A stretch of 36,818 nt of DNA, taken from a virus. Both the position numbers and the translations under genes were made by a program. Below the pieces are notes generated by a model that was not told where the DNA came from, did no database searches, and saw only the letters and a list, made by a program, of their open reading frames with translations. How positions within the stretch are numbered: the stretch's first letter is position 1; every line of letters begins with the position of its first letter. This document shows positions 14,831-33,387 of this stretch, one piece after another. The stretch covers positions 1 to 36,818 of IMG/VR virus record IMGVR_UViG_3300021356_000064; one strand, written 5' to 3'.

Positions 14831-15815
14831 CGAATTTACCTTGAATAAAATCTTCAACTACTTCAGGATTTACCCTCAACAGGTAAGCAGCGTTATCTTG
14901 ATAACCAAAAGTCATAAGTAGGTCACCTTTATAATAGCACATACCAGTGCAGAACTCCACATGAGCATCCATGAAAGAAAAATCTCTGGAGAATCCTTGA
15001 CACTGCCACTTCTCATCCCAAATCATAAACCTATGACGATATAATCCATCCTTTCTGCCAACTTCGCTTTGGAAGAGATCGACTTCATGAGTCAAAGCGA
15101 AATGATATCTAGGATTAGAATTTAGAGGGATAACATGCGAACCGCCTCTAACGTCCCTAGGAATATTAACATACTCAGTCAAATGAGTTGTTTGAGAAGT
15201 TCCATTAATATGATCAACCTTTACAACTTCAGTTGGGTTAGACCATTTAACATAATGCCATGGCATATCAATGATTGGCATCCAATTCTTTTCACAGTAA
15301 GAATTTGGATCCTTAGGAGGTTCAATACGAACACGAGAAACTTCCCGAACAGAATCTTCATCAACAATAATCTTGGAAAGTTCCATCCTTCCTTGACCAT
15401 TTGTCGTAGTATCTCTCCTAACTCCAGAAATATAAAGATCTCCTTCCCAACGGAAAATTCTAGAATCCTCAAGACCAACGAAGTCCCAAAGAGGTTCTTT
15501 ATCTAACTCGGTTGTATCAATCTTATTATAACGGGAGATATTAAGATCGTCGTCCAGTTCAAGATAATAGTTTGTGGTCCTAAGGTGCATATCATTCTCT
15601 GGATGCACATAGGTCAAAGGACCCCATTGATGTTGGAAAGTCTTCTTTTCTGAATGATAAAAGGTATAATTAACGTGCCTAAGATTCACAATAATCTTAC
15701 CATTATCATTATAAACGGCAGGGTTCATAAGACCCGTGCCGTTTGTCAGATTAGATGGGATGATTAAAGGGTGAATACTGCCGCCATTATCTAAAGCGAT
15801 TTTCGCGAAATGCAT
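14817..15815 (-). CDS. GH130-like five-bladed beta-propeller enzyme
   Basis: The 332-aa protein resembles the GH130/GH43-type propeller. Key marks are LMNPAVYNDNGKI (29-41), GLEDSRIFRWEGDLYISGVR (114-133), EKNWMPI (175-181) and, near the end, HVEFCTGMCYYKGDLLMTFG. The 'GLEDxR' and 'EKNWxP' strings are family hallmarks; GH130 enzymes are mannoside phosphorylases or hydrolases. Glycan binding or trimming is likely, but substrate is unknown. The first ATG is at 15815. A sigma70-like promoter (15840-15868) directly upstream would drive this gene and the four below it. Confidence 0.75.
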   Translation of the reverse strand: MHFAKIALDNGGSIHPLIIPSNLTNGTGLMNPAVYNDNGKIIVNLRHVNYTFYHSEKKTFQHQWGPLTYVHPENDMHLRTTNYYLELDDDLNISRYNKIDTTELDKEPLWDFVGLEDSRIFRWEGDLYISGVRRDTTTNGQGRMELSKIIVDEDSVREVSRVRIEPPKDPNSYCEKNWMPIIDMPWHYVKWSNPTEVVKVDHINGTSQTTHLTEYVNIPRDVRGGSHVIPLNSNPRYHFALTHEVDLFQSEVGRKDGLYRHRFMIWDEKWQCQGFSRDFSFMDAHVEFCTGMCYYKGDLLMTFGYQDNAAYLLRVNPEVVEDFIQGKFDEKN

Positions 15816-15839
15816 ACACTTCAATAAAACATATCTGAT

Positions 15840-15877: not shown

Positions 15878-18034
15878 TTATGGAACCATTCTACCCATCT
15901 GATAAGAGTGTATTCCATTCCGCTGAGGATCAAATCCAGAACCTTCTCCCCAGAACATCAACTTATCATCCTCAGTAATGGCAAAGAAACCATCATTTAC
16001 ACAACCACTATCGATACTAGCGATCTTGGTGACGTAAGGAACTTCTTTTGTTCCATATGTTTGAGTTGGTGCAAATTCCCAAGGTAGTTTATTTCTACCA
16101 TCAATTTCATAAGCGGCACTACCCATTGAAGTTCCTCTACCTCTTGCTTCCGTATCTCCATTACCAGCAGTTGATGCTCTTCCAGAAGAATCTAAGAATA
16201 GACCCCATCTCCATTCATTATTACCAGAACCAGATCTCTTAACATCAATAATATCAGAATACCCTATCTGCATTGGTACAGGATACTGTTTGCCATTGTT
16301 AAGGAAAGGGTTATCTCCACTGTCCTGAGCGGTGGCCATTACATAATCAACATTCGAGTGTCGATAATAAGACTGCTGACCTACAGTATAAATCATTCCT
16401 GTTGATTTTTGCTTAATCCACATACTAAAGTTTCCTTGGTCCATATGGAACCAAAAATCTTCAACATCATTATAAAGATCAGTTACATTCCATAAATCTT
16501 TTAAGTCAGCTCCCGACACTCCAATTGATCTAGCACGATCCCACCAGAACTTTTGCATTGGAGAGAATCCACCACCATAATTTGACCAATCACCATCATA
16601 GTCATTAGAATTGTAAAGAGATCTACCACCCCAAGGACCATATCCTGCCACATGAAGAACTCCATCATGAGTCAGGACCATACTTCTGTAATAAGTATTA
16701 TAACCACCATTCATGTATTTCTTAATACCACCATGCTTTTGCCAATCATATGGAACTTTTTTGGGAGTACCTTGACGCCAATAATCACCAACACCTAGAT
16801 GGTCATAATTATTTTGACCCCAACCCCATAGATTTCCATCTTCATCTAGAGCATGACCATATTGATAGTTACCACCACCTAACCAGATGTCTATAATTTT
16901 TCTATTGTCAAAATAGTTTTGAGGAATCTTTGCAGGAACGTAACTATTGTACCAGTTGTTATTGTATCTAAAGTTTCTACCAAGTCCCGAATGTCCATTA
17001 TATCCCCAAGTCCAAACCTGCCCATTTATATCAAGTGCCGCATTAACACTACTGGAGTTTGTAGTATATGTTGTTGCAGTTGATGAGATCTTAATTGCCT
17101 GAATATCACGAATCAGACCTTGACCTCTATTACCAAACGATCCTTGATATTGTTGAATTTGTTGGTTGTAATTAAAACTACCACCCTGATTATTACATCT
17201 ACCTACTCTTCTAGAATAATATCTGTTAGTAGTACCACCATCTCCATGCTCTCCTGATCCCATCCAACCAGACCAGAATACCTCTCCAGTATCGTAAAGA
17301 TATCCCCACATATGGTAATGATCACCAACACCTTGAATGATTTTACCTCTTGCTCCAAAAATACCAGGATCTACAGTAGATTCTCTGTATCCATCATACT
17401 CATCCCAACGTTGGAATACTGATGCACTAGTGCCGTCTTGCTGTCCACCAAAACCAAATTCAGATGCACCGAAACTATAATCATTTCTATATCCACTATG
17501 AGATGCTTCATAGTTTCCATTGATGTACGATTGACCCGACTGCCCTGCATTTCCGTTAGTAATTTCACCAGAAGACCAACCAGCAGATCCATGTTTGGGA
17601 TTCCATCCAAGAGGATTACGATTCCAGAAACCAATACATCTATTTGATCTGTTTTGATTTGCGTTTGTAGTTAACTTGCTCCAATAAGTAGTGCGACTTG
17701 AATTATCAAAAATTGGGTGAATGTATTTACCGTGCTTAAGACATACATGCCTTTCACCATTATAATTTACAATATCTCCTGGATAATATTCTCCCTTATC
17801 TTTCCATTGACCAGTCCAACAATAACCAGCAGAGTATTTTTCCCATCCAGCACTATCATGCTCTGGTTTGTAATTATAACCAATCTTATTATGTTCCGAA
17901 TAATAATCAGTCTTACAAACGTAAGCAGTTCCGTTTACCCTTACGACATCATTTTTATTATAAACCGCACCATGTCTCCATTCACCACGATATTCTTGGC
18001 GTAGATTAGATGCTAGATCTCTTAGTTTTTCCAT
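15878..18034 (-). CDS. RCC1-propeller tail fibre / adhesin (718 aa)
   Basis: Two chitin-binding-like beta modules lie at the N-terminus: YRGEWRHGAVYNKNDVVRVN with GTAYVC (15-40) and WTGQWKDKGEYYPGDIVNYN with GERHVC (73-98). The rest, from about 240, is an RCC1-type beta-propeller with blades such as INGQVWTWGYNGHSGLG, EDGNLWGWGQNNYDHLG and DGVLHVAGYGPWGG. RCC1 propellers bind proteins or glycans, and CBM-like modules bind carbohydrate, so a receptor-binding role is likely. It is Gly/Asn/Tyr/Ser-rich, typical of secreted beta proteins. It is the smallest of three such genes and lies downstream of them in the minus-strand unit. No signal peptide; virion incorporation is inferred. Confidence 0.8.
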   Translation of the reverse strand: MEKLRDLASNLRQEYRGEWRHGAVYNKNDVVRVNGTAYVCKTDYYSEHNKIGYNYKPEHDSAGWEKYSAGYCWTGQWKDKGEYYPGDIVNYNGERHVCLKHGKYIHPIFDNSSRTTYWSKLTTNANQNRSNRCIGFWNRNPLGWNPKHGSAGWSSGEITNGNAGQSGQSYINGNYEASHSGYRNDYSFGASEFGFGGQQDGTSASVFQRWDEYDGYRESTVDPGIFGARGKIIQGVGDHYHMWGYLYDTGEVFWSGWMGSGEHGDGGTTNRYYSRRVGRCNNQGGSFNYNQQIQQYQGSFGNRGQGLIRDIQAIKISSTATTYTTNSSSVNAALDINGQVWTWGYNGHSGLGRNFRYNNNWYNSYVPAKIPQNYFDNRKIIDIWLGGGNYQYGHALDEDGNLWGWGQNNYDHLGVGDYWRQGTPKKVPYDWQKHGGIKKYMNGGYNTYYRSMVLTHDGVLHVAGYGPWGGRSLYNSNDYDGDWSNYGGGFSPMQKFWWDRARSIGVSGADLKDLWNVTDLYNDVEDFWFHMDQGNFSMWIKQKSTGMIYTVGQQSYYRHSNVDYVMATAQDSGDNPFLNNGKQYPVPMQIGYSDIIDVKRSGSGNNEWRWGLFLDSSGRASTAGNGDTEARGRGTSMGSAAYEIDGRNKLPWEFAPTQTYGTKEVPYVTKIASIDSGCVNDGFFAITEDDKLMFWGEGSGFDPQRNGIHSYQMGRMVP

Positions 18035-18040
18035 TTGGGT

Positions 18041-18709
18041 TTATTCGTCGTCTGGGGAAGGCAGTTCAGGTGCTCCAGTTAGGAAGTTAACATTATCATT
18101 AGGATCAGTAGATGGGGTAGATACTATAAATCCATCAACTTCATCCATAAATTCGCAAACGTGATTATGGGCAGATTCTGTGCAAGTACACAGACCTATA
18201 TTATATGCATAATCATTATCCTCTAGATATTTAGCTCTAGTATTTTGGTCGGCAAGGAGAACATTTTCAGTAAAATCAGAACCTAAAGTTTCTCTGTCTT
18301 CAAATCTAATCGCAAAAAGTTCTTCTTCAGTAGAAGAAGATAAACTTACTGAATCACCCTCATACCTCTCATCGTCACCTTCAACAGGAACATAATATCC
18401 CTGAGCAAGAATCTCTGGAGTATAGTCTTGATGAATAGAATAATAATCTCTATTAGTATCTACATCTCTATAAAGGAAAATTGCCTCTTCTTCACGAATA
18501 AAATCATCATCTTTAATTTCAATTTCAGTTGAAATAGTCTCTGTTCCAGTTTCATTCCCCTCATCATCAAATGTGAGAACTTCGCTGAATACAGTTGTTA
18601 TAGCAACAACAGGAGGTTCATATTGAATAGAATCTAATTCAGGAAAATTGAACGAATTATATGATCCGTCCATTGATATAATTTTTCTGGGTGTTGTACT
18701 AATCGTCAT
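18041..18709 (-). CDS. Acidic hypothetical protein inside the fibre cluster
   Basis: A 222-aa, very acidic protein with no recognised domain. It begins MTISTTPRKIISMDGSYNSF and contains VVAITTVFSEVLTFDDEGNE, then repeated acidic strands. Near the C-terminus is a Cys/His cluster, LCTCTESAHNHVCEFMDEVD, that could bind a metal. It sits between two RCC1 fibre genes in the same transcript with a GGAG ribosome site, so it may be a fibre chaperone or accessory virion protein. That is an inference from position. Confidence 0.65.
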   Translation of the reverse strand: MTISTTPRKIISMDGSYNSFNFPELDSIQYEPPVVAITTVFSEVLTFDDEGNETGTETISTEIEIKDDDFIREEEAIFLYRDVDTNRDYYSIHQDYTPEILAQGYYVPVEGDDERYEGDSVSLSSSTEEELFAIRFEDRETLGSDFTENVLLADQNTRAKYLEDNDYAYNIGLCTCTESAHNHVCEFMDEVDGFIVSTPSTDPNDNVNFLTGAPELPSPDDE

Positions 18710-18720
18710 TGTATTTCTCC

Positions 18721-21237
18721 TTATCCAATTAAGTGTGCGTTAAGAGAACCATAGATATGACCTCTGTTGTTTCCAAATCCCCAGTCATAATTACGACCAG
18801 AATGAGTTAGTTCTCCATTATCAAACAAACAAGCAGATCTTGTAGTGTGAGAAATGTTACCCTCATAGTCTCCAGTACTATGGATAGCAATACAGTGAAG
18901 TCCTCCATAATTTGTAGCATAACCATTATTGGCAGAGTTGGTAGATTGATTATTCAAAGAATTACTACCACCAGCACTATAGATAGGAGCGTGCATCTTT
19001 CTACCTAAAGCATATTGTCTCTGACCATTCTGTTGGAATCTGATTCTGTTATTTGTAAGAGTACCAGAAGTTCCTGCTCCTCCCTCACCATATCCATTCC
19101 AACCACACGCATAAACGTGTCCTTTATCAGTTAAGAACTGCTGGGTTGTTCCACCAGATCTTCCTGCAGATGACATAGCAACTAGATTCTTCAAGATTTG
19201 GTTGCTTGAAGTTCCAGGCATATAGATTGCAACTGGATTAGTTTGGTTAGTTGTATTACCATTGGTCATATTATAGTGACCATTATAACCCATACCATAA
19301 GTATCACCATTTGATCTTCTATACCAAGTATGGGCATAACCTCCGTCATCAGTGTCTCCCCAAACATTTGAAATAGTTCCAGCACCAGTCCATCCAGTTC
19401 TTCTAGTAATAGTAGAAGAGTTACTGTTGTTAGATTGATTTCCTTGACCAATTTGACCTCTGTTGTTCTTACCAACAGTCCAAACATAACCATTACCATC
19501 AAGAGCTATAATAAAGTCATTATTTGCCTCAGAAGCAACCGTGATAAACTTCTGAATCCCACCATAAGAGTTCCAGTTTACAGGTAACTTCTTAGGAGTT
19601 CTTGATCTGTCAGAACTTCTAAATCCGCTATTTGTTGGATAACCAAGTTGACCATAGTTGTTATAACCCCAGGACCATAGATTTCCATCTTCGTCCATTG
19701 CAAAAGAAGTTCTATGACCTGCCCAAATGTCAACGATTCTCTTTCCTTCAAAGAACATGTGACGGTTCATTGAATTAACTAACCAAGTTCTACTATCAAC
19801 AGACATGTTGTCATTTTGGAAGATAGCAATCTCTGGGTTACCATGAGAAACTTCAGAACTAATACCACACTGTCCAGTATCGTTTCTACCCCAGCAATGG
19901 ATTTCCCCATATTCATCTAGAGCGATGACATGTGCGTCACCATCTCTTGCTTGGTGTCCACCAGAAACAAGTTTTACAATGCTTCTATTTTTGAACATCT
20001 TTCTAGGAATTGCCCAACCAATGTTCGGAGAACCACTATTGCTACTACTAGAATAACCCCAAATACCATCTCCAGCAGAACCAGAAACAGTAATAGTTCC
20101 ATCAGTTCTTAATTGCCAACGACAATCATTCCAAGACTCATATGCCTGAAGGACTCTAGGTTGCTTCTTCTGTCTATAAGGAGATAGATTGCCAACATCA
20201 GGACTAATACCGCTGAGGTTATCTACAGGGAAACCGATGTCTATTTCTCTAGCATACTGGTGTGCAGTTCCTGCAGGGTTATAATTGCTATTTGAAGTTC
20301 CACCCTCTGCAATGACTTGCCCATTACCTGCAATGAAGTGTTCGGAATTTCTATAGGACATATGCCCTTTGTTCCAACCAGGATTCCATCTCCAAGCATG
20401 AGGAGATGTAGAACCAATTCCTAAACTAGTATTCCAAGGAATGTTTCCGTTGTATCTATTATTAGTTCCCCACTGAGGAAGATCAATATAAGGGTGTCCA
20501 TGCCAGTTCCATGGTTGATCATTAACGAATCCAATGCATCTATCATAAGGCATTAGATCATCTCCTCTAGAGAAGATCTCCCATACACCAGGGAAATCCC
20601 ACATAGGATCAATAGCAGAGTGACCAATTGCACAGATATAAGATGAATTTCTCATCTGAACAATATCACCTGGATAATATGTTACATCCTCCTGCCATTG
20701 ACCAGTGCAGTTATATGATTCTGACCACTCATCCCAATCTTGCTTATTAACAGCGATTTCATAAAAACCGCACATTCTTCTAGGTCCTAGGACAAATGAA
20801 GAATTACTAATAGTAGATGTGTTTACACCTACATTAGTCAAGTATAAATCTGCCTGCGTAGAGTTTACAGGACTTACAGAGTTAACACCTACTCCAGCAC
20901 CATAGTATTCATTGTAGAATACTAATCCTTGCATGGGTTCCCATTCTTCTGGACCATGAACAGCTGGTGGTCTGTAAGCGGTTACAATTCCAGCAGTTTG
21001 ACTACTTGGATTAAATCCACTAAAAGTAACTCTAACTTTACTGGTTTGAATACCAAGAGATGATATATTTCCGTTTAGAGTCTGAAGGAGAACTGGAGCA
21101 TGTGCTTTTGGAGTATCATTTACAAAAATGAATTTCCTATTGTCATGATCTACAATATCACCTTTACTGTAAGTAGTAGAAGCACTATAAGTGCCTCTAT
21201 ACATGAATTTAACTTTTCCTAGAGTAATAGTTGCCAT
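18721..21237 (-). CDS. RCC1-propeller tail fibre / adhesin (838 aa)
   Basis: Same design as the neighbouring RCC1 genes. CBM-like modules are at 11-40 (YRGTYSASTTYSKGDIVDHD) and 176-205 (NCTGQWQEDVTYYPGDIVQM, then SSYICA). The propeller covers about 370-800, with clear blades EYGEIHCWGRNDTGQCG (442-458), EDGNLWSWGYNNYGQLG (516-532) and GNGYVWTVGKNNRGQIG (581-597), then a KGHVYACGWNGYGEGG blade. Between the modules and the propeller is a spacer rich in Trp and His. Role inferred as host-surface binding. A GGAGGA ribosome site precedes the start. Confidence 0.8.
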   Translation of the reverse strand: MATITLGKVKFMYRGTYSASTTYSKGDIVDHDNRKFIFVNDTPKAHAPVLLQTLNGNISSLGIQTSKVRVTFSGFNPSSQTAGIVTAYRPPAVHGPEEWEPMQGLVFYNEYYGAGVGVNSVSPVNSTQADLYLTNVGVNTSTISNSSFVLGPRRMCGFYEIAVNKQDWDEWSESYNCTGQWQEDVTYYPGDIVQMRNSSYICAIGHSAIDPMWDFPGVWEIFSRGDDLMPYDRCIGFVNDQPWNWHGHPYIDLPQWGTNNRYNGNIPWNTSLGIGSTSPHAWRWNPGWNKGHMSYRNSEHFIAGNGQVIAEGGTSNSNYNPAGTAHQYAREIDIGFPVDNLSGISPDVGNLSPYRQKKQPRVLQAYESWNDCRWQLRTDGTITVSGSAGDGIWGYSSSSNSGSPNIGWAIPRKMFKNRSIVKLVSGGHQARDGDAHVIALDEYGEIHCWGRNDTGQCGISSEVSHGNPEIAIFQNDNMSVDSRTWLVNSMNRHMFFEGKRIVDIWAGHRTSFAMDEDGNLWSWGYNNYGQLGYPTNSGFRSSDRSRTPKKLPVNWNSYGGIQKFITVASEANNDFIIALDGNGYVWTVGKNNRGQIGQGNQSNNSNSSTITRRTGWTGAGTISNVWGDTDDGGYAHTWYRRSNGDTYGMGYNGHYNMTNGNTTNQTNPVAIYMPGTSSNQILKNLVAMSSAGRSGGTTQQFLTDKGHVYACGWNGYGEGGAGTSGTLTNNRIRFQQNGQRQYALGRKMHAPIYSAGGSNSLNNQSTNSANNGYATNYGGLHCIAIHSTGDYEGNISHTTRSACLFDNGELTHSGRNYDWGFGNNRGHIYGSLNAHLIG

Positions 21238-21255
21238 TTGTTTAGAATCTCCTCC

Positions 21256-23742
21256 TTATTGATGGGTATGTCTAGGTCTTCTCATGCTACCCATACCAGT
21301 ACCATCTCCAATTGAACCGATGTTTCCGCTGTTACCGAACGGACTATTTTGTGTACCAAAGACTTCACCAGTACGAAGATCTGCCCAATAAGCACCCTTC
21401 GAACTCGATTGTCCCGTCTGAGTCATAAACCAGTTTCCATAGTTTGCATATGGTTCAAAATAATTATTCTTTAGTCTATAATTATTATTTACACGATTTG
21501 GATCGAGGTCTCTCCTGTTCTCATAAGAGTCAGAGTGACAACGACCAGATACTCCAGCATCATATCCACCAAAGTACCATTCACCTTGATTTCCATAAGG
21601 TCTAGAAGCAAAGCTGCTGTTGTATCTATATATCGCAACACTAATATAGGAACTATTGTGACCTTGATTGGAGCAGGTCATCATAACGTTAGTCGCGTTA
21701 GAGTTATTATTAACTTTAACATTTTGGAAAGTATTTTGATTACTAGTGTTATTACTGCTATTACTCAAATTGTAATAACCATTATAACCACAAGCGTATA
21801 ATGTATTATTAGTAATAGAACTTCCTCTAGTCATATAAGAGAAAACATGACTATTTCCACCGCAAGTCCAGAAGTCTACACAATCAGTAAATGCTGTTCC
21901 TTGTCCAGAACCCTGATTACCAGTTGATGTAACTGGGTTAGATGCACCACTATATCCAGAAGTACGAACTCGAATCGGAACATAACAATTTCTAGTATGA
22001 TTATGTCCTAAGTTTCCATAACCATTATAACCCCATGTATATGCACTACCATCTCCTCTTACGAGAGCATTGAAACCATGAGAACCAGAACCATTAAGAC
22101 TAAATTTCTTAACTCTCTGGTTTGTTCCTGTTAGGGTTCCAAATGAGTTTGCATCAACCCTGTTTCCACTCAATGATCTTTGCTGAGAAGTATTACCACT
22201 ACCACACTGACCATATCCATTATATCCAGAACAATATAAATGTCCTTTATCAGTTAGGACCATCAGGTATCCATACTGACAACCTGTTGCCCAAATCTCT
22301 ACAACTCTACCATAAACTGAAGAGTTTAGAGATATCTGAGTAGGTTGACTTCTATTAGAAGTATCATTATGACCTAATTGACCATAACCATTATACCCCC
22401 AACTGTAAATACTTCTATTACCATTTGTTTCTTCAATTAGAGCATAGTTTGCACAAGATTGATCATTATTTCCACCATCAGTAGATGCAATGCGAATTGC
22501 TTTCTTACCTCTTAATACAGTTGTACCTGACTTATTAATATTTGCATATCCACATCTTAATGGACACTCCATTGTTCCTGTCCAGTTAGCACCAGACTGT
22601 CCGTGCCCATTATAACCACAATAATGAACTTCTCCATTATTGAATAGAACTAAAGTATTTCTTCCTCCAGATTCAACCTGAATAATTTTAGGATATTCTC
22701 CATCAGGAGTTGGTAACAATCCATCAATATAGTCAAGGTTAACAAAATTACCTTCTGAGAAGTTATTAGAATTACCGTCTCCGCTAGTAGATACGCAACC
22801 AGAACGATATTCATTTTCGCCCTGACTTACAAACATATATCGACGATTGATATATCTGTAATTATATCGAACTTGATGAGTTCCATAAGTCTTAGCAGGA
22901 CCAATACTGTCTCCCATACCTACAAGAACACTTGTTCCCGTAGCGCCTGCTGAACTATTAGTTGTTACATAAGTTGAGAAGGATGGATTAGAACCACCAG
23001 ATCTTCCAGTATATCCAGAAACACTACTGTCAATCTGAATCGTTGGGGAACCTGTATAACCTTCTCCAGGATTAACGATTTCACATAAGAAAATTTGACC
23101 AGAACTATTGATATGTGCTACACCTTCAAAACCTGAACCGCCGCCACCTGATGCAGTCAGGCGAATCATTCCTGTTTTTGGACTTCCAGTCTTACCATTA
23201 ACCTTATTGGTAGTCAACCAACCAGAACCTTGAGTACTAAGTCTTAAAGTATTAATTGTACCGATCTTTGACTGAGATCTGGCATTCCAAAGAGGTTTGT
23301 AAGGAGGTACAAAACCATCATTAACAGCACCTAAAAATGCATATCTCTTATGACATGCACCTGTCGAAAGACGATGCCATTGCGTAGAATATGCACTGTT
23401 TGTTGGATTGTAATTACTATTTGCTTGCTTACAGATGTAAGTCGATACATCATAATACTTCCAGACAGCGTTATACGCATACTCATGAATGTAACTAACA
23501 ATATCATTAACTTGATATTGTGTACTGCTACTCCAAAGTCCTCTCTCCCTAGTCAGACCAGACAACTTTGTCCAGTTTCCAGAGATACCAGGAATGTGTG
23601 CGCCAGAGGAATTATTAGCGTTTGCTTTATAAGTTCCACCAACGTAACTTACGATATCGTCAGTGTAATAAGATTCAGAGGTGGTATATTCACCTCTGAC
23701 GTTATATCTAACTTTCCCAAGTTCGTTAACTGTTACTGCCAT
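21256..23742 (-). CDS. RCC1-propeller tail fibre / adhesin (828 aa)
   Basis: The N-terminus has two CBM-like modules: VRGEYTTSESYYTDDIVSYV with GGTYKA (15-40) and RGLWSSSTQYQVNDIVSYIH (67-86), then STYICKQ. Blades of the RCC1 propeller include NNGEVHYCGYNGHGQSG, RSIYSWGYNGYGQLG, KGHLYCSGYNGYGQCG, DGSAYTWGYNGYGNLG and NTLYACGYNGYYNL. These are the most regular blades of the three proteins. A Gly/Ser insert (about 200-265) separates modules and propeller. The start lies one base before the stop of the collagen-like gene, so it is in the same unit; a TATAAATA box at 23938-23945 is 195 nt upstream. Confidence 0.8.
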   Translation of the reverse strand: MAVTVNELGKVRYNVRGEYTTSESYYTDDIVSYVGGTYKANANNSSGAHIPGISGNWTKLSGLTRERGLWSSSTQYQVNDIVSYIHEYAYNAVWKYYDVSTYICKQANSNYNPTNSAYSTQWHRLSTGACHKRYAFLGAVNDGFVPPYKPLWNARSQSKIGTINTLRLSTQGSGWLTTNKVNGKTGSPKTGMIRLTASGGGGSGFEGVAHINSSGQIFLCEIVNPGEGYTGSPTIQIDSSVSGYTGRSGGSNPSFSTYVTTNSSAGATGTSVLVGMGDSIGPAKTYGTHQVRYNYRYINRRYMFVSQGENEYRSGCVSTSGDGNSNNFSEGNFVNLDYIDGLLPTPDGEYPKIIQVESGGRNTLVLFNNGEVHYCGYNGHGQSGANWTGTMECPLRCGYANINKSGTTVLRGKKAIRIASTDGGNNDQSCANYALIEETNGNRSIYSWGYNGYGQLGHNDTSNRSQPTQISLNSSVYGRVVEIWATGCQYGYLMVLTDKGHLYCSGYNGYGQCGSGNTSQQRSLSGNRVDANSFGTLTGTNQRVKKFSLNGSGSHGFNALVRGDGSAYTWGYNGYGNLGHNHTRNCYVPIRVRTSGYSGASNPVTSTGNQGSGQGTAFTDCVDFWTCGGNSHVFSYMTRGSSITNNTLYACGYNGYYNLSNSSNNTSNQNTFQNVKVNNNSNATNVMMTCSNQGHNSSYISVAIYRYNSSFASRPYGNQGEWYFGGYDAGVSGRCHSDSYENRRDLDPNRVNNNYRLKNNYFEPYANYGNWFMTQTGQSSSKGAYWADLRTGEVFGTQNSPFGNSGNIGSIGDGTGMGSMRRPRHTHQ

Positions 23743-23743
23743 T

Positions 23744-26700
23744 TTATACTGCTGTTGTTACTACAAGATGTCCAGTGGAATTAATACTCATTGATAAAGA
23801 TCCAGTCAGAGTAAATACGTCTGCGAGGATTGGAGCCTTTCTAATAGTTTCATTCGTTTCATTCGCGGTGAATGAAGAAGAACCATCAACTTCAGTCATG
23901 GTCAATTGCCCATAATCCTCAGTGTCATTCTTATCGGTATTTATAGCCAAATAGTAGTATGCTGCTGTACCGCTGTTATTGACCCAGGCGACTCCAGAAC
24001 CAGTTGAAGATAGCAACTGACCCGAAGAACCACCGCTACCGTTAACGTCAATTAGTTTCTTATCTAGTTCAAGATCCTGCTTCGTAACGACCTTACCAGC
24101 ACTCGTGATCTCCATTGCGTAGGTGCCGTTTGGAGTCGTATTCGATTCGATGTTAGTTGTATTATTAACATAGAATCTGAAAGATCCGCCAGTAGCAGTT
24201 CTACCCGCGACCAGATAGTTTGTACCGTTGTTACCCCAGCAGGAACCATTCCACCAGGTGGTGTGTCTATAATTGGAAGAATTATCCTGATAATTAACGC
24301 GAAGTGCGCCACCACCCTGATAGATGGTCATATCGTCACCTTCATTTCTGAAGACCCAAGATCCGCCGCTATTCAGGAAACCGATTCGATTACTACTATC
24401 AGCGTAAACAGATCCTCTTCGACTGGTTCCATTAGTAGCAAATCTGAGTTCCATGCTGCCAGCAGAATCTCTAAGACGCATTACTGCGTTAGATGGAGAT
24501 TCAATATGAACACCAGTTGCTTCGTTATAAAGACCTTCGCCAGCATTATAGTTACGGAACCAATCATCCGCGTAGAAGTTTGTAGCGCGAATGTTCTTAC
24601 CAGAAGACATCCAGGTATAACCGTCAAGGTTATCAGCGTCTAGACCAGATCCAGATCCATCATTACCTGCGTGCCAGACGGTGCTTCCGCGCCATGTTAA
24701 TGCATTAGCACCGCTACCAACAACAAGTTGGTTGGTACTATCATTACCACCCCTACGAATGTAAACGTTGTTACCGCCAGTAGCAGAGATATAAGTATGA
24801 GAATCAGCACTCATAATCATATACTCAGAACTGCTCTGAGAAGAATGATAGAGACCCTTATAGGAACTACCTCCAGACCAATCACCAATTCTGGCACCAT
24901 TCATCGTTAGATGATTAGCACTGAAGTTAGCAGTTAACTTCGAACCTGCTTTTGGTGTCTGGTTGCTTCCAGTTGCACCAACCATGACTGGGAGCAAGGT
25001 TGACGTTGAGGTATCGTTGGTTGCATTGATCGCTGTAGAAGGACCAGTATTACCCTGAACACCTAGATTACCTTGAGTTCCCTGGCGACCTTGAGTGCCT
25101 TGACGACCCTGAGTTCCCTGGCGACCTTGAGTGCCTTGAGTACCTTGAGTACCCTGAGAACTTGAAGGTCCAAAGTATGCATAAACTCCAAAACCAGAAG
25201 TATTGATCGATGCATCAAGATATAACGCGCTACCAGGAGAACGAGCAACTGTTCTGAGTAGAGTGCTGTTCTTATAGTATCTGACATTAGCACCATCATA
25301 TGTTACATACACAACATCAGACGTTGTGTAACTTCCATGAGTACTGATCGAAGAACCAGACTCATAGATTCTTAGACTTCCATTATTGAAGTAAATCGCA
25401 TAATCAATAGAGGAGAAACTATCATCAGTTGTTGGGTCTGAGTTCAGACCGATCATTGCCTTGCCGCTTGTAGAATCTGGTGAGGCAGCTACATATGCAC
25501 CAAGAACAAATCCTTGTTCGGAAGAGAATCCACCGTTCCAACTATTTCCACCAGCAGTCTTTTCAAAGAGGTTTGAATCGCTAGTACTTTGAGTAACGTT
25601 ACCAGAAACAACAGCCTTCCAAGCAGAAGAACCGCGAGATCCTAGAACACCCTGAATACCTTGGCGACCTTGGTTGCCTTGGCGACCCTGAGTGCCCTGA
25701 GTGCCCTGGCGACCTTGATTACCCTGTGTTCCAGTGCCTCCAGTACCTTGGATACCTTGGCGACCCTGGTTACCCTGGCGACCTTGAGTTCCTTGAGTAC
25801 CTTGCGTGCCCTGACGACCTTGGATGCCTTGCTGACCTGTCGTTCCTTGGCGACCTTGGATACCCTGTTGTCCAGTAGTTCCCTGACGACCTTGACGACC
25901 TTGAACACCTTGAGTACCAGTTGCACCTTCAGTACCTTGGCGACCTTGCGTCCCTTGAGTACCTTGATTTCCATTTAAACCGTTAGCACCCTGAGTACCA
26001 GTCGTTCCCTGAGAACCAGTTATACCTTGGCGTCCTTGGCGACCTTGTGTACCCTGTTCGCCCTGAATACCTTGGCGACCTTGTGTTCCTTGGCGACCTT
26101 GCTGACCTTGAACACCTTGCTCTCCAGTTTGACCTTGGATACCTTGAATACCCTGACGACCTTGATTACCTTGAATACCCTGAACACCTTGGGCACCTCC
26201 CTCGCCTTGGATACCCTGGATGCCTTGTTGTCCAGTAGTTCCTTGGCGTCCTTGAATACCTTGTTCACCAGTTGTTCCTTGAGTACCAGTAGAACCCTGG
26301 GCACCAGTAGTTCCTTGCAGACCTTGCTCACCTTTAATTCCTTGGAAACCTTGGCGACCTTGGCGACCCTGAACACCTTGTTCACCCTTAATACCCTGAG
26401 CACCTTGAGAACCAGTAGTTCCCTGAATACCCTGAATACCCTGCTCTCCAGTAGTACCCTGAATACCTTGATCACCCTTAGTTCCTTGGCGACCTTGCTG
26501 ACCTTGAACACCCTGAACACCTTGAGTACCCTGTGTTCCTTGGCGTCCTTGAGTTCCTTGAATACCCTGTTCGCCTTGAATACCTTGGATACCCTGACGA
26601 CCTTGCTGTCCCTGAACACCTTGGACACCTTGGCGTCCCTGCTGACCTTGGATGCCTTGAACACCCTGAATGCCTTGGACACCTTGGCGACCTTGAATAC

Positions 26701-29700
26701 CTTGCTGACCTAAATCTCCAGTTCTGCTGAAGCTGAAGATCATTCTGGTTCCAGAAGAAGGAAGCGTTGTTCCTGCTACATGAGTAACACTGATTAGATA
26801 GTATCCAGATAGAGGAGTAACAGCATCAACCTGGAAGATCATCGATACAGTTCCAGTTGGAGCTGCTTCAAGAATCGTTATATAACCCTTAACGGTACTG
26901 GAAGAATCATCCCAAGTATCGTACCAAGCAGTCTGATTTGTACCTCCATCATCTAAATTATCAATATAGAGTCTTGAGATTGATGCGGCAGTTGCATTAT
27001 TAAATCTGAAGAATCCTTGTGTTGGGTCAGTATTACTGGTTGAAGTACTGAAGAGATACTCAACACCACCTCTCTTACCATCTTGACCTTGCTCACCCTG
27101 AACACCTTGTATGCCTTGCTGACCCTGACGACCTTGAACACCCTGAGTACCCTGAGGTCCTTGAGTACCTTGGATACCCTGAGTACCCTGTGTTCCTTGA
27201 CGACCTTGAATGCCTTGGCGTCCCTGTTGACCCTGAATTCCTTGTTGACCTTGAATACCTTGCTGACCTTGGATACCCTGTTCGCCTTGAATACCTTGAA
27301 TGCCTTGGCGTCCCTGTTGACCCTGAACTCCTTGGATGCCCTGAGTACCTTGCTCTCCAGTAGTACCTTGAATACCCTGACGACCTTGGCGACCTTGAGT
27401 ACCTTGAGTACCAATACCGCCATCTGCACCAGTTTCACCCTGAATACCTTGACGACCTTGAGTACCCTGAGGACCTTGAGAACCTTGGACACCTTGAACA
27501 CCTTGCTGACCCTGGAGACCTTGAATACCTTGCTGACCTTGAAGCGCAATATCCTCAACAAGTTGCCAAGATACTCCAGTTTCAGTAGAAGAAAGAACAG
27601 AAGTTGTTGTTCCAACCTGACTTGTAGAGTCATAGAGAGGACCCTTAAGGTCTAATCCTCCAAATGAAGTAACGATTCCAGAAGTGCTAACCGTTGAAGC
27701 ATGGAATACTTCAGCAGTTGTAATTCCAAGAGTGCTGATTCCGCTGACACTCAGACCAGTTAGTTTTGGAGTTTGAGCAACAGAAACAATACCAGCGTTA
27801 ACTGTCAGGTTCGTAGCATCAAATGATGCAATACCTTTTCTACCAACTGTTGTATCAGTAGCAAAAACATGGGTATTACTTGTAATAACACCAGTGACTC
27901 TACCGTAAGAATCAACAGCAACATCAGTAACAAAAGCAGCAGCTCCAGATGTTAAGACACTCTTAGAAGTATTGACAGTTGCTAGGTCAATATCGTCAGC
28001 ATTAACAACGATTCTATCTGTTCCAGCAGTACCAACAGAAACTTCAGTTACAAGACTGTTGAACAGACCAGCACCTGCCAGGGTCTGTGTTGGAGCAGTA
28101 AACTGAGTCCATTCCAGAGCAGAAACACCAATCGCAACATTACCTCTAGTAATGTGTACCCAACCAGTGCCTCCATTGATTGTACCATCAGCGATGAAGC
28201 TGAAGTCACCAGGAGAGATCTCTGCATTGGAGTCGTAACCCGTATCTCTGGTCAACTGCCATGAAGTACTACCAGAACCAACTCTACTTACAGTGTAAAT
28301 ACCATTCTCATAAAGAGTTGTCTGATTCTTAACCAGAATTCTTTCATCAAAGGTTGCGGAAACATCATCAACCGTTAGATTAGCATTTGTTTTACCCCAA
28401 AGAATAGCGCCAACACCGCTAGTTCCATTATCATAATTACCATCTACATCTACAGTTGTAGCAGCACCTACAGACTTCTGAATCGTAATCGCAGACTGGA
28501 AGTTGTCCAGATAATTCTTTGTTACGAGTTCGTTCAGTGCGCTTGGAATCGTCTCAGTAGCAAAGAAACGATATCCATAAACATTACTAGAAACACCAAC
28601 CTCACCATTAACAGTAAGAGTTCTGCTACCAAATACGTCCGTACCAATAGCAACTTTTTGAGTGGCAGAGTCATAATTTAGACCTGCAGCACCTTCAAAA
28701 ACTCCGTTATCATTAAACTGAACTTGCTTATTACTACCAGCAGCAGTTACTGCCTCAACAGTGATTGTTGAAATATTACCAGAAGCACTAGCAGTAACAC
28801 CAGAACCAACAAAATCAAGAATGGTTATGGAACCAAGAGTTCCTTTTTGAGTTCCCTCATCCTGAATTGTAATACCAGTAATGGCGTTTGATGGAGCACC
28901 AGTCTGCCAATCAACACCAGATCCAGTAGAAACAAGAATCTGTCCGCTTGTTCCTGCCTGATTATCCTTATCGTATAGAGCTCCTTGTAATCTTACTCCA
29001 CCATCAACATCTAAATCTCTAGATGGAATAGTCGAGTTAATACCAACTCTTCCAGTATTTCCATTTACATGGAGAACATCATTTAAATTAATATCTACGT
29101 CGCCACCGTCACCAAGTTTAACGTAATCTTGTGCGCCTTCAAATGCATCAATAAGTTGCTCGCCCCCAGCAAACAACCTAATTCTATCTTCAGTATAGTG
29201 AATATAAGTATCTGAATCGCCTGTATGATAAATTGTTTGACCAACAGAAACATGATCTCCAAGAGTAGTAATACCACTAACAGTTAGTGCTCCACCAAGA
29301 GCATCACTGATATTAACACCAGCAAATGTTGCACCCTCAAGAACAGTAAGGTCAGTTACTCTGCATTCACCATAAACATCAAGTTCTGCTCTTGCTAAAC
29401 TGGTTCCAATACCAACTTTACCATCCTGAATAATAGAAAGTGCTTCTACTTGAGTTCCAGTTTGATTATCAGCAAAAACAGATAGAGACTTATTATTGCC
29501 TCCATGACTACCTTGATACTTAATATTGAATCCATAATCACCACTATTAGCAGTGATATCATCAGCAAATCCGTTTACTCTTAAGATATCAACATCTCTT
29601 TGTACAATATTAGTTCTGATTATGGAACCTGTCTGAGCTGCTGTTCCAAAATCAAATCTAACTTCATTATCATCTACGTTTAGATTATCCTTAAATGTAG

Positions 29701-30406
29701 ATGTACTCGTTACAAATAAATTTGTAGTGCTAGTAATACCAGTTACAGTAACACCCGCACCTGCTGTCTCAAATTTCTTACTATTATTATAGAACAGTTC
29801 TGCCTGAGCACCATTAATAAACTGTGCTGCAGTAGAATTATCTGCAGTGTTCTTAATTAGAACATCATTACCAAGGATCTTCAGGTCTCCACCACCGTCT
29901 TCCTTAATAATGGATTCTGCACCATTATGATAAATTTCGAATGCCTCGGCGGCACCCATTAAAATCTTATTATTATCCCCTAACGTAGCATTAGATTTAA
30001 AGTTAGCATCCCCCTCAAATGTACCAATACCAAGTACAGTAAAGTTATCAACAAATACACCACCAGTAGCAGTAAGTCCACTACTGACAGTAGATAGACC
30101 ACCACTAACATTCAGATTAGTAATTTGAGCGATTCCGCCAATTACATTATCTGCTGTAGTAGCAGTAGTAGCAGTTCCTGTAAGATTTCCTGTTACATTA
30201 CCAACCAGTGTTCCAGAGAACGTTGTTGCAGTAATAATACCAGTTACTTCTGCCCCTCCCTTGACATAGAGATCTGCAGTCGCGTTTGTAGTTCCGATTC
30301 CAACGCGAGATAGAACCTGTAGCGAAGTTAATTCTTCACTGTGACCTTGAATACCAAGACGAAGGGTATCCTGTCTGCCGCTAAGATATCTTACTGGACC
30401 TGCCAT
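23744..30406 (-). CDS. Giant collagen-like tail fibre protein (2220 aa)
   Basis: The longest gene in the window. The N-terminal ~900 residues are beta-repeat fibre sequence of the cyanophage kind (GIGTTNATADLYVKGGAEVT, many 'GIGTS/VGINS' turns, and YLDNFQSAITIQKSVGAATT). Three collagen-like G-X-Q/R/T-G blocks follow: residues encoded at about 27064-27546, 25630-26718 and 25042-25155, separated by small beta domains of about 110-165 residues. The C-terminal ~370 residues include HAGNDGSGSGLDADNLDG and end in another beta domain. Bacterial and phage collagen repeats form triple helices, so this is probably a long trimeric fibre. Gln, Arg and Thr fill the repeats; proline is scarce. The start is ATG 30406. 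It almost certainly forms part of the virion, binding role inferred. Confidence 0.85.
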   Translation of the reverse strand: MAGPVRYLSGRQDTLRLGIQGHSEELTSLQVLSRVGIGTTNATADLYVKGGAEVTGIITATTFSGTLVGNVTGNLTGTATTATTADNVIGGIAQITNLNVSGGLSTVSSGLTATGGVFVDNFTVLGIGTFEGDANFKSNATLGDNNKILMGAAEAFEIYHNGAESIIKEDGGGDLKILGNDVLIKNTADNSTAAQFINGAQAELFYNNSKKFETAGAGVTVTGITSTTNLFVTSTSTFKDNLNVDDNEVRFDFGTAAQTGSIIRTNIVQRDVDILRVNGFADDITANSGDYGFNIKYQGSHGGNNKSLSVFADNQTGTQVEALSIIQDGKVGIGTSLARAELDVYGECRVTDLTVLEGATFAGVNISDALGGALTVSGITTLGDHVSVGQTIYHTGDSDTYIHYTEDRIRLFAGGEQLIDAFEGAQDYVKLGDGGDVDINLNDVLHVNGNTGRVGINSTIPSRDLDVDGGVRLQGALYDKDNQAGTSGQILVSTGSGVDWQTGAPSNAITGITIQDEGTQKGTLGSITILDFVGSGVTASASGNISTITVEAVTAAGSNKQVQFNDNGVFEGAAGLNYDSATQKVAIGTDVFGSRTLTVNGEVGVSSNVYGYRFFATETIPSALNELVTKNYLDNFQSAITIQKSVGAATTVDVDGNYDNGTSGVGAILWGKTNANLTVDDVSATFDERILVKNQTTLYENGIYTVSRVGSGSTSWQLTRDTGYDSNAEISPGDFSFIADGTINGGTGWVHITRGNVAIGVSALEWTQFTAPTQTLAGAGLFNSLVTEVSVGTAGTDRIVVNADDIDLATVNTSKSVLTSGAAAFVTDVAVDSYGRVTGVITSNTHVFATDTTVGRKGIASFDATNLTVNAGIVSVAQTPKLTGLSVSGISTLGITTAEVFHASTVSTSGIVTSFGGLDLKGPLYDSTSQVGTTTSVLSSTETGVSWQLVEDIALQGQQGIQGLQGQQGVQGVQGSQGPQGTQGRQGIQGETGADGGIGTQGTQGRQGRQGIQGTTGEQGTQGIQGVQGQQGRQGIQGIQGEQGIQGQQGIQGQQGIQGQQGRQGIQGRQGTQGTQGIQGTQGPQGTQGVQGRQGQQGIQGVQGEQGQDGKRGGVEYLFSTSTSNTDPTQGFFRFNNATAASISRLYIDNLDDGGTNQTAWYDTWDDSSSTVKGYITILEAAPTGTVSMIFQVDAVTPLSGYYLISVTHVAGTTLPSSGTRMIFSFSRTGDLGQQGIQGRQGVQGIQGVQGIQGQQGRQGVQGVQGQQGRQGIQGIQGEQGIQGTQGRQGTQGTQGVQGVQGQQGRQGTKGDQGIQGTTGEQGIQGIQGTTGSQGAQGIKGEQGVQGRQGRQGFQGIKGEQGLQGTTGAQGSTGTQGTTGEQGIQGRQGTTGQQGIQGIQGEGGAQGVQGIQGNQGRQGIQGIQGQTGEQGVQGQQGRQGTQGRQGIQGEQGTQGRQGRQGITGSQGTTGTQGANGLNGNQGTQGTQGRQGTEGATGTQGVQGRQGRQGTTGQQGIQGRQGTTGQQGIQGRQGTQGTQGTQGRQGNQGRQGIQGTGGTGTQGNQGRQGTQGTQGRQGNQGRQGIQGVLGSRGSSAWKAVVSGNVTQSTSDSNLFEKTAGGNSWNGGFSSEQGFVLGAYVAASPDSTSGKAMIGLNSDPTTDDSFSSIDYAIYFNNGSLRIYESGSSISTHGSYTTSDVVYVTYDGANVRYYKNSTLLRTVARSPGSALYLDASINTSGFGVYAYFGPSSSQGTQGTQGTQGRQGTQGRQGTQGRQGTQGNLGVQGNTGPSTAINATNDTSTSTLLPVMVGATGSNQTPKAGSKLTANFSANHLTMNGARIGDWSGGSSYKGLYHSSQSSSEYMIMSADSHTYISATGGNNVYIRRGGNDSTNQLVVGSGANALTWRGSTVWHAGNDGSGSGLDADNLDGYTWMSSGKNIRATNFYADDWFRNYNAGEGLYNEATGVHIESPSNAVMRLRDSAGSMELRFATNGTSRRGSVYADSSNRIGFLNSGGSWVFRNEGDDMTIYQGGGALRVNYQDNSSNYRHTTWWNGSCWGNNGTNYLVAGRTATGGSFRFYVNNTTNIESNTTPNGTYAMEITSAGKVVTKQDLELDKKLIDVNGSGGSSGQLLSSTGSGVAWVNNSGTAAYYYLAINTDKNDTEDYGQLTMTEVDGSSSFTANETNETIRKAPILADVFTLTGSLSMSINSTGHLVVTTAV
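23938..23945 (-). promoter_or_regulatory. TATAAATA late-type box inside the collagen fibre gene
   Basis: A perfect T4 late consensus on the minus strand lies within the last 70 codons of the 2220-aa gene, 195 nt upstream of the first RCC1 gene. It could give separate late expression of the RCC1 genes or be a chance match within the coding sequence. Confidence 0.35.
25042..25155 (-). repeat. Collagen-like repeat block 3 (C-proximal)
   Basis: About 38 codons of G-T-Q / G-R-Q repeats (GTQGTQGTQGRQG...) in the fibre gene, ending GNLGVQGNTGP. It is the shortest of three blocks. At the DNA level it is a repeated nine-base pattern. Confidence 0.85.
25630..26718 (-). repeat. Collagen-like repeat block 2 (central, about 360 codons)
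   Basis: The longest uninterrupted G-X-Y block, starting GDLGQQGIQGRQG and ending GVLGSRGSS. X and Y are mostly I/T/V/R and Q. It contains X-K-G triplets such as GIKGEQG. The DNA consists of near-identical nine- and eighteen-base units (complement of CCTTGGCGA/CCTTGA), so slippage and length variation are likely. The opposite strand is also open but is not a gene. Confidence 0.85.
27064..27546 (-). repeat. Collagen-like repeat block 1 (N-proximal, about 160 codons)
   Basis: Begins LQGQQGIQGLQGQQGVQG and ends QGEQGQDGKRGG. One short non-perfect turn, ETGADGGIGTQG, lies inside. The block separates the N-terminal fibre region from a 130-residue globular insert encoded at about 26720-27063. Confidence 0.85.
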
Positions 30407-30766: not shown

Positions 30767-33328
30767 TTAGTCTCCTCCTAATGCTAGAATAAATGGTGTG
30801 ACCTGACTGAACAAACTCTTAACATAAATTGCTCCAGAAATGGTTCCTGTTGTTTGGTCAATAACAACACCATCGCCAATCCTGAAGTTTCCATCTTGAT
30901 CGGTACTTGTGTAGATAACTTCACCACCGTCAATCTTCATAACTTCATTATCTGAAATTGTCACTCCACCCTTAGAAGGTCTTGCAGTCTCAATCGCATT
31001 TCCAGCACCAACATATTCAAATGAATGCGATGAAGCAATTTGCAAACTCTGCCTTGCAAAGTATGCAGTTGTACCATATCCTACTGGGTTATTTAGATCC
31101 TGAACCAAAGTGATGGTTGAGATACCAGAAGAAGGTAAAGTTGCTTCTTCAACGAAGTAATAAATTGGAGTAATAACTGCAGTTCCTTCTGCAGTCGTGC
31201 CTCCTCCGACAGGTCCAGCAAACTGAATAGAAGGTGGACTGTCCAATTCATACTGGAAACCAGTAGAGAGAATGTTTACACTGACAACTTCACCTTGAGC
31301 ATTAATATTTGCAGTTGCCTGAGCAGGAATTGCATTGCCAGGACCAGTTGGAGATGAGATTGTAACTAGAGGAGAGGTCGAATAACCTGCACCAGGATTT
31401 GTAATAGTTACATCCTGGAGAGAGAAATATTTTTCTCCAAAGTAAAGTGCTTGCCCTCTGTATGGTCTAAAACTACCAATCCCCTCAACAGTAACTACAT
31501 TAGTGCTTTGACCATAAACAATAGTAGTACTTGTCGTAGTACCTACTGTCGCAGTATAACGATCATTACACTTACTCAACTGGTCTCCGATTCCTTCAGA
31601 AACCAAACCTTCTCTACCAAATGAGGAGTTGGAGTTAGTGATATCGCACTGACCCCCCTGTCCCGAGAAGATTGCTCTATCGTTACAGATGGTGAAAATT
31701 GAAACCAACTGACAATAAGCACCATTGGTTACAGAAACACCAATTCCTCCCTGGTTATACTGGGTGTAAGAGTCAACGTTGAATGAACCCTGAACGCCAA
31801 CAGTATCTCCAAAGTCTCCAACGTCTGCATTGAAACCATCAATCTTTGCACCGATGCTGTTTGAAATAAAGTTAGTGCAGTTACGAATGTAAGGACCCTT
31901 AGTGATAGGTCCAGTACCTTGAGATGGACTATAAATTGCAGTTAAGATTCCAGAGTTGATAGCACCGCTATTTCCTGGATACTGAGTAGTAATTCCAGTA
32001 AATGCTGCAGGTCCATTCTCAATAATGTCAGTTACGATACCTACACAAGTATAAATTGCAGAAACTACGTTCTGACAACCATTAACAGCATCATTAAATC
32101 CAGTAGAAGAGTCAAGTTGAATTGAACGATCTTTTACTTGATAGTGTTCGGACTGGTAGTTTTGTAATTTTTGTACTGTACCACCAGTATCATAAGTATG
32201 ATCAATAGTCGAAATACCAACTACAACTTCAAAACTATCATTATTAATGACTCTATTAACTGGATATGTAAATCCAAACTGACCATCTGGGAAAATAGTT
32301 GTCGTTACACCAGCATGTTCTGCAGAACATGTAAATGATAGGTTCTCCAATTTGATTGGATCATCCTTAATCAATCCATGAACAGGAGCAGTAACAGTTA
32401 GAATACCTGTTGCTTTATCGTAAGTAGCTCCAGTTACGTCAGAAGAAACGCCAACTGCAGTGCTTCCCCAAGTAGCATTGTTAATAATCGATCTTACAAT
32501 ACCAGCAGAATGATATACAGCATCAATAGTTTCAGAAGAAACACCAACAATGTGCTGTAAACTTACACCATTATAATAAGATTTACCTGCACCTACAGAC
32601 TTAGAGTTACCCCCTCTAGTAATATCATGACAAATTGAATTCCAAATTGATCTTACGTCTTCAATACAATTAGTTACTGAACTAACGCCAAGATTGAATG
32701 CTGGAGATTTATAATCTGTACTAGTAATATATCCTACCGCTTCATGAGCAATATACTCAACATTCTGCCTGATTAGTCTTGAAGCATCGAAGTACCTATC
32801 AGACGCATGACCTAATAGTGGTGTGTATGCAATTGCTGCTGCACCACCAGTAGCAGGTTGACCAATAAAACTTAGGTCAGTAATATGATTTCCTTGACCA
32901 ACATAAAACAAATCGGAACCAGGATTCTGTGGAGATACCAAACAGTTCCTAAGTTCCGCACCTTCTACACCTACATTCTTAGGTAAGTAGATAGGATTAT
33001 TTTCTACATAAGTTCCTGGAAGAACTTTAATTGTATCCCCCTCTCCTGCTGCTGCCGCTGCTGCCTTAATGGAAGCAAGAGAATCGTTTTGTGATAAACC
33101 TAGATTAGTATCGCTACCGTTCGTCGTTACGAATAATGTTTTACCTGCAGTAGTTGCTGCACCGACTTCAACAACTCGTGTGTCAATACCTACTCCGTTT
33201 CTATCTTGACGCAGAAACAGTTTACCATCAAAAGTATTGATTGCGAGTTCGCCCAGGGGCAACTGATCTAAAGTTGGTTTTTTACCAGCTACAGAAGATC
33301 TCTTAAACCTAATGATTGGGTCGGCCAT
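30767..33328 (-). CDS. Tail fibre with Mtd-type N-terminus and beta-helix (853 aa)
   Basis: Residues 1-55 (MADPIIRFKRSSVAGKKPTL, then LPLGELAINTFDGKLFLRQD) resemble the N-terminal attachment module of the phage major tropism determinant and related fibres. From about residue 60 comes a parallel beta-helix, with the pectate-lyase-like TLFVTTNGSDTNLGLSQND and DTIKVLPGTYVENNPIYLPK. A VGVEGAELRNCLV stack follows. A second beta domain with TITNPGAGYSTSPLVTISSP follows at about 640-660, and the C-terminus ends ISGAIYVKSLFSQVTPFILA. The N-terminus probably docks on the virion and the rest is fibre. It has a perfect TATAAATA box 52 nt upstream and starts the fibre transcription unit. Confidence 0.82.
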   Translation of the reverse strand: MADPIIRFKRSSVAGKKPTLDQLPLGELAINTFDGKLFLRQDRNGVGIDTRVVEVGAATTAGKTLFVTTNGSDTNLGLSQNDSLASIKAAAAAAGEGDTIKVLPGTYVENNPIYLPKNVGVEGAELRNCLVSPQNPGSDLFYVGQGNHITDLSFIGQPATGGAAAIAYTPLLGHASDRYFDASRLIRQNVEYIAHEAVGYITSTDYKSPAFNLGVSSVTNCIEDVRSIWNSICHDITRGGNSKSVGAGKSYYNGVSLQHIVGVSSETIDAVYHSAGIVRSIINNATWGSTAVGVSSDVTGATYDKATGILTVTAPVHGLIKDDPIKLENLSFTCSAEHAGVTTTIFPDGQFGFTYPVNRVINNDSFEVVVGISTIDHTYDTGGTVQKLQNYQSEHYQVKDRSIQLDSSTGFNDAVNGCQNVVSAIYTCVGIVTDIIENGPAAFTGITTQYPGNSGAINSGILTAIYSPSQGTGPITKGPYIRNCTNFISNSIGAKIDGFNADVGDFGDTVGVQGSFNVDSYTQYNQGGIGVSVTNGAYCQLVSIFTICNDRAIFSGQGGQCDITNSNSSFGREGLVSEGIGDQLSKCNDRYTATVGTTTSTTIVYGQSTNVVTVEGIGSFRPYRGQALYFGEKYFSLQDVTITNPGAGYSTSPLVTISSPTGPGNAIPAQATANINAQGEVVSVNILSTGFQYELDSPPSIQFAGPVGGGTTAEGTAVITPIYYFVEEATLPSSGISTITLVQDLNNPVGYGTTAYFARQSLQIASSHSFEYVGAGNAIETARPSKGGVTISDNEVMKIDGGEVIYTSTDQDGNFRIGDGVVIDQTTGTISGAIYVKSLFSQVTPFILALGGD

Positions 33329-33379: not shown

Positions 33380-33387
33380 TATTTATA
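33380..33387 (-). promoter_or_regulatory. TATAAATA late promoter of the fibre unit
   Basis: Perfect T4 late consensus on the minus strand, 51 nt before the ATG of the 853-aa fibre at 33328, in the 65-nt gap after the HNH gene. Expected to be recognised by gp55/gp33-modified RNA polymerase. Confidence 0.75.

Follow-up and report, generated by a model that had tools for sequence, protein, structure and literature searches.

The window, meaning the whole stretch of DNA analysed here, is the complete 36,818-base virus record IMGVR_UViG_3300021356_000064, which is probably a genome fragment. PHROG matches in the window included tail tube cap, baseplate wedge, single-strand DNA binding protein, PhoH, thymidylate synthase, and photosystem II D1, a set that points to a T4-like cyanomyovirus. 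The D1 gene (psbA, 36238-36818) is represented by its 3' part only, as it is cut by the window end. When the region was searched at the nucleotide level against 50,697 phage records, no match was obtained. On the minus strand, the genes are ordered as an 853-aa tail fibre, a 113-aa ORF, a 2220-aa collagen-like fibre, RCC1 proteins a and b, a small ORF, RCC1 protein c, a 335-aa protein, a 629-aa protein, and a glycosyltransferase. The features of the locus are as follows:

30767..33328, minus strand: tail fibre protein of 853 aa (phrog_17885), leading the apparent fibre operon
23744..30406, minus strand: collagen-like (Q-G-x) tail fibre of 2220 aa, with 1 bp between its stop and the start of a
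21256..23742, minus strand: RCC1 protein a, 828 aa (Pfam RCC1/WD40_RLD), first of the trio in transcription
18721..21237, minus strand: RCC1 protein b, 838 aa (Pfam RCC1/WD40_RLD), the second propeller gene
18041..18709, minus strand: small acidic ORF of 222 aa (pI 4.05) between b and c
15878..18034, minus strand: RCC1 protein c, 718 aa (Pfam RCC1/WD40_RLD), last of the array
14817-15824, minus strand: 335-aa protein directly downstream of the trio
12968-14857, minus strand: 629-aa methyltransferase/TPR protein, followed by the glycosyltransferase

The intergenic gaps separating the collagen-like fibre, a, b, the small ORF, and c were 1, 18, 11, and 6 bp, and gaps of 1 to 18 bp suggest that the genes from the 853-aa fibre through c form a single operon. 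The T4 late-promoter-like core ATAAATA was matched seven times in the window, each time on the minus strand, and the matches at 33380, 33786, and 34403 lie about 20 to 55 bp upstream of three minus-strand gene starts; its frequency in the window was not enriched compared with shuffled sequences. Downstream of the trio, the 335-aa protein was 85 to 98% identical in the related loci L087, L093, and L094 and had no match in Pfam, PHROG, or NCBIfam and no convincing one in the PDB. The 629-aa protein has an N-terminal methyltransferase domain, a TPR-like central part, and a further stretch that resembles a methyltransferase, and together with the glycosyltransferase it recalls the sugar-modifying genes near the RCC1 genes of S-SRM01.

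A first-pass annotation of the DNA had placed three RCC1 ORFs of 718, 838, and 828 aa here, and both their positions and their family were borne out: all three lie on the minus strand, and their RCC1 similarity in Pfam is far beyond chance. WD40_RLD was matched with E values of 8.9e-18 (c), 1.2e-39 (b), and 3.2e-26 (a), and the RCC1 repeat PF00415 scored 32.2, 60.8, and 78.1 bits in the three proteins against a curated cut-off of 21.7. The carbohydrate-binding N-termini claimed in the same annotation were recovered in part, as CBM_5_12 (Pfam) matched two stretches in each of a, b, and c, but only b (31.6) passed the cut-off of 26.2, with c (19.7) and a (15.9) sub-threshold. The motif G.W.....Y..GDIV.....Y.C, which was said to occur twice per protein, was found to be degenerate, with no strict double occurrence in each protein. 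The annotation was silent on the 222-aa ORF inside the array and on the collagen-like fibre 1 bp upstream, and its statement that RCC1 is mainly found in eukaryotes and bacteria overlooked many phage RCC1 proteins, such as the virion trio of phage W70 (PMC11370258).

Protein a consists of two CBM5/12-like N-terminal modules, a glycine-rich phrog_460-like module at residues 155 to 257, and an RCC1 propeller at about residues 350 to 800. Protein b has CBM5/12-like modules near residues 15 to 38 and 179 to 213, and its RCC1 repeats begin at about residue 375. In protein c, the CBM5/12-like modules lie at residues 17 to 40 and about 75 to 98, followed by a divergent propeller at about residues 232 to 695. 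None of the three matched Phage_T7_tail (PF03906). Local identity among a, b, and c was about 25 to 43%, indicating, in agreement with the annotation, that they are not recent duplicates. Against phage RCC1 PHROGs (phrog_4219 and related), a and b matched at E values of 1e-10 or better and c more weakly (2e-4). The small acidic ORF and its counterparts gave no family match in Pfam and PHROG searches, so that the role proposed for it below is drawn solely from its position and acidity; the alignment of the small proteins showed conservation too low for a collection scan.

The fold of the propellers was examined with AlphaFold models of a and c, which were built from 11 and 13 sequences, respectively. 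The confidence was moderate, with mean pLDDT values of 64 (a) and 56 (c) and pTM values of 0.63 (a) and 0.54 (c). From the strand lists, seven blade-like strand units could be read in each model. In Foldseek searches of the PDB, UVR8 and HERC2 were the top matches and RCC1 ranked further down (E values of 5e-18 for a and 6e-14 for c, probability 1.0). The models covered most of UVR8, with TMt values up to 0.68 (a) and 0.60 (c) and low confidence in the outer blades. Profiles of a and c searched against PDB sequences matched HERC2 (9e-54) and UVR8 (4e-36). The models thus make a closed propeller ring likely in both proteins, the outer blades being of low confidence. Against viral models, protein a fell close to the tail fibres of two Pseudomonas phages, PollyC and Littlefix, and I3ULP0/P2/P3 were the top viral fold matches.

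When 17 related records were searched with PF00415, most showed three adjacent RCC1 reading frames. Exactly three complete RCC1 ORFs were present in 67 fetched loci, some records contributing several loci; clustering at position a yielded 27 clusters at 95% identity, 18 at 80%, 9 at 60%, and 5 at 40%. The layout in the 67 loci was a-b-[small ORF]-c, with the three RCC1 ORFs on one strand, an a-b gap of 3 to 37 bp, and a b-c gap of about 450 to 750 bp. The b-c gap was occupied by one ORF of 129 to 242 aa in all but one array, the exception being L015, in which gene b is split into two frames. To counter ascertainment, a second scan was seeded from gene c, and the layout of a, b, gap, and c recurred wherever the contig was long enough, save in a few records with broken frames. 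Gene b of L122 and of L126 and gene c of L169 are split into two frames, which may reflect disruption or assembly error. The trio recurs across many uncultured aquatic viruses. Photosystem genes were found in the window, G002, G003, and G004 and in none of the other tested trio records, any of which may be incomplete. Synechococcus phage metaG-MbCM1, a suspected carrier, was set aside, as its first 50 kb were without RCC1.

The related loci were divided into group A (the window and L093-L100) and group B (L101-L107 and kin). Upstream of a, a collagen-like fibre was found in the window, L093, and L094, and a fibre of 1200 to 1700 aa with several tandem CBM-like modules was found in group B. In a tree of 43 propeller regions, the four position labels required three changes, which is the minimum, compared with 23.8 for shuffled labels. 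The same relations were repeated for each position class within groups A and B, with matching topologies and no swapping seen. These relations firmly support, at the level of sequence, co-inheritance of the trio within each of the two groups. Support for a single origin across both groups was 47/21 for a and 79/81 for c, and b took two changes, with weak deep placement; common descent of each position across the groups is likely on these sequence relations.

These results bear on the earlier proposal that the three proteins are an expanded, possibly exchangeable set of receptor-binding proteins, taken here to mean alternatives of which one would be in use per virion or host. Fast, adhesin-like divergence (see below) is in keeping with such a set, as is the difference in RCC1 copy number among distant phages (one in BUCT-ZZ01, three in S-SRM01, and six in G017). 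However, number, order, and the small gene between b and c were constant across dozens of sampled arrays, and this constancy gives the array the look of a fixed machine rather than of random spare parts. The copies also grouped by position with matching topologies, and no swapping was seen. The reverse transcriptase PF00078 was absent from 16 records, which are possibly fragments, leaving a diversity-generating system unsupported, and a diversity-generating retroelement was rejected on this ground. Exchangeable use of the three proteins is thus unlikely, and that part of the first-pass annotation was abandoned.

In addition to gene order, module sharing links the trio to tail fibres. Tail fibre-like proteins of the cultured cyanophages S-CAM1, S-CAM3, S-SSM7, and P-SSM2, as well as of the pelagiphage Mosig, also contain the N-terminal module, and the CBM_5_12 match was strong (99 bits) in the group B fibre. 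The glycine-rich phrog_460-like module of a is shared with the window's 853-aa tail fibre and with the fibre of group B, and the N-terminal part of L106, a relative at position b, matched tail-fibre PHROGs. Because the CBM-like modules recur in tandem in fibres without RCC1, they are more likely to act as attachment or spacer repeats than as the specificity part. In two class-c proteins (L099:11875-14619 and L100:5305-8139), residues about 93 to 260 were homologous to residues about 1597 to 1740 of the window's collagen-like fibre, which suggests domain shuffling among fibre genes. In the Pseudomonas phages PollyC and SeaP4, a T7 tail-fibre N-terminal domain (PF03906, E value about 6e-5, slightly below the cut-off) is followed by RCC1 repeats in one fibre protein, and its gene sits at the tail-fibre locus, flanked by internal virion protein and holin/terminase genes.

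A DNA-related role has been proposed in print for RCC1 proteins of other phages. The authors of the phAPEC6 study, in which eleven RCC1 proteins were found, suggested a DNA-related role (PMC7247149), and those of the W70 study proposed a role in DNA packaging (PMC11370258). On this view, which takes its cue from the eukaryotic family name, the RCC1 proteins would act within the capsid to organise or condense the DNA of the phage. PHROGs also lists the matched RCC1 families under DNA metabolism, and the window's protein a has a basic pI of 8.95. However, the median pI of 201 array RCC1 ORFs was 6.25, with only 24 of them above 8; the genes lie in a fibre operon and carry modules common to tail fibres; and big CBM-like N-terminal arms are hard to fit inside a capsid. 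Moreover, the phrog_4219 profile spans the entire PollyC tail fibre gp38 (L116:4681-7284), N-terminus included, at 1112 bits. Since the profile covers a full T7-type tail fibre, its DNA metabolism category is doubtful, and its label as regulator of chromosome condensation is a probable misannotation. A DNA role for the trio appears very improbable, and for this lineage the DNA condensation label given to phage RCC1 proteins seems questionable.

The evolutionary rate of the cassette was compared with that of its neighbours. When the window was set against L087, its nearest relative, dS was about 0.4 to 0.6 along the whole locus, and this evenness indicates that the cassette was not recently swapped in. 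The omega values for this pair were 0.24 for c, 0.22 for the small gene, and 0.14 for b (partial gene), compared with 0.03 to 0.04 for four downstream genes, so that cassette omega was roughly 4 to 8 times the downstream-gene omega at similar dS. Mean identity between the window and L094 was 55% for the cassette (collagen fibre included) and 84% for the flanks (exact p 0.004); the corresponding values with L093 were 52% (collagen fibre included) and 82% (exact p 0.008). The faster protein divergence of the cassette can alternatively be read as relaxed constraint. Within c, omega between the window and L087 was 0.10 in the first 60 residues and 0.58 at residues 541 to 600, and an N-terminus more conserved than the propeller was seen in this comparison and also between L012 and L013. 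Among group B pairs, the N-terminal 60 residues showed no consistent extra conservation relative to the propeller. A general rule of conserved N-terminus and variable propeller was dropped because of this inconsistency, which also weakens the split into a conserved anchor and a variable tip.

RCC1 propellers in general are protein-interaction platforms. The trio could accordingly serve as structural spacers or as a baseplate or fibre scaffold, with the propeller as a protein-protein hub that makes no host contact, and the strict conservation of one each of three proteins would fit a structural assembly. However, the cassette is far less conserved than its flanks, which is unusual in a core scaffold, and the RCC1 part of PollyC lies at the fibre end opposite the attachment domain. 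We regard a purely structural function as an improbable alternative.

Altogether, the trio is best explained as a fixed, co-inherited tail-adhesin module of a T4-like cyanophage, and we place the probability of this reading, which infers that the proteins are in the virion, attach to the fibre, and bind the host, at roughly 0.68. The annotation's idea of a receptor-binding set in the fibre region, stripped of expansion and exchange, is indirectly supported by the gaps of the fibre operon, the modules common to cyanophage fibres, the fast divergence, and the RCC1-tipped T7-type fibres. The set would comprise propeller a, propeller b, the small acidic protein, and propeller c, with a, b, and c being putative virion tail components encoded directly after the long fibre. 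The N-terminal CBM5/12-like modules would most likely attach to or lengthen the fibre, and the C-terminal propellers may present variable surfaces that touch the host envelope. The small acidic protein is perhaps an assembly factor or adaptor. A more tentative extension of the adhesin reading is that three different RCC1 propellers, each from its own orthologous lineage, and the small acidic factor form an obligate hetero-complex on the long fibre, rather than three independent receptor binders, and that this adhesion device is common to T4-like phages of aquatic habitats whether or not they carry photosystem genes. We consider this joint proposal possible but rather doubtful. If true, it would represent a previously unrecognised multi-component adhesion device in aquatic T4-like phages.

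Which proteins T4-like phages use to recognise picocyanobacteria and other aquatic hosts is poorly resolved. A trio that is fixed, evolves quickly, and occurs in many uncultured viruses provides a concrete candidate for host contact and a metagenome marker for tracking that machinery. Phage RCC1 proteins, widely labelled as DNA condensation proteins, deserve re-examination as tail adhesins.

Phage RCC1 arrays and three consecutive virion RCC1 proteins are already known. In Escherichia phage W70 (Septuagintavirus), three consecutive RCC1 proteins, W70_237-239, were detected in virions by mass spectrometry (PMC11370258). W70 resembles the trio in having three adjacent RCC1-repeat genes in a myophage; however, its RCC1 proteins are 40 to 43 kDa, compared with 81 to 92 kDa in the trio, and CBM-like modules and an interposed small gene, both present in the trio array, are unreported for W70. 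The Rak2-like jumbo phages (GAP32, 121Q, PBECO4, and phAPEC6) also encode RCC1 proteins, often in multiple copies (PMC5259590, PMC7247149); one of those in GAP32 is virion-associated and has numerous homologues in 121Q (PMC5259590). Their copy number ranges from 1 to >10, and a fixed positional trio and fused N-terminal modules are undescribed in them.

Among cyanophages, the cultured freshwater cyanomyovirus S-SRM01 (NC_070963) has three RCC1 genes shortly downstream of genes for the baseplate wedge and tail fibre, and an unnamed ORF separates the first RCC1 gene from the second. Its RCC1 proteins are 344 to 405 aa and essentially propeller only, the third gene is set apart by six intervening genes, and they belong to another clade than the trio; the main text of the S-SRM01 paper does not mention chromosome condensation. 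G017 (L109, G017:80000-99999) carries a row of six neighbouring RCC1 genes, each encoding about 450 aa, in the same clade as those of S-SRM01 and BUCT-ZZ01 and apart from the trio, and BUCT-ZZ01 has a single RCC1 gene in its fibre region. No paper on a cyanophage RCC1 trio was found in the freely accessible literature searched.

Tail fibres offer two further comparisons. The fibres of Pseudomonas phages PollyC and Ppr_SeaP4 end in a C-terminal RCC1 propeller, as do the trio proteins, but they have a T7 tail-fibre N-terminal attachment domain and are encoded by one gene in a T7-like phage. The fibre-like proteins of S-CAM1, S-CAM3, P-SSM2, Sf-FS3, and Mosig EXVC030M carry several tandem copies of the trio's N-terminal module, and, unlike in the trio, no RCC1 propeller was found in the examined CBM-array proteins (L112, L114, and L115). 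The eukaryotic proteins UVR8, HERC2, and RCC1 have their fold in common with the trio, as indicated by profile and Foldseek searches, but share just about 15 to 20% sequence identity with it, and nothing points to Ran, ubiquitin, or UV functions. From these comparisons, the trio is best read as a variant within a class that is already known, the RCC1 virion proteins of phages.
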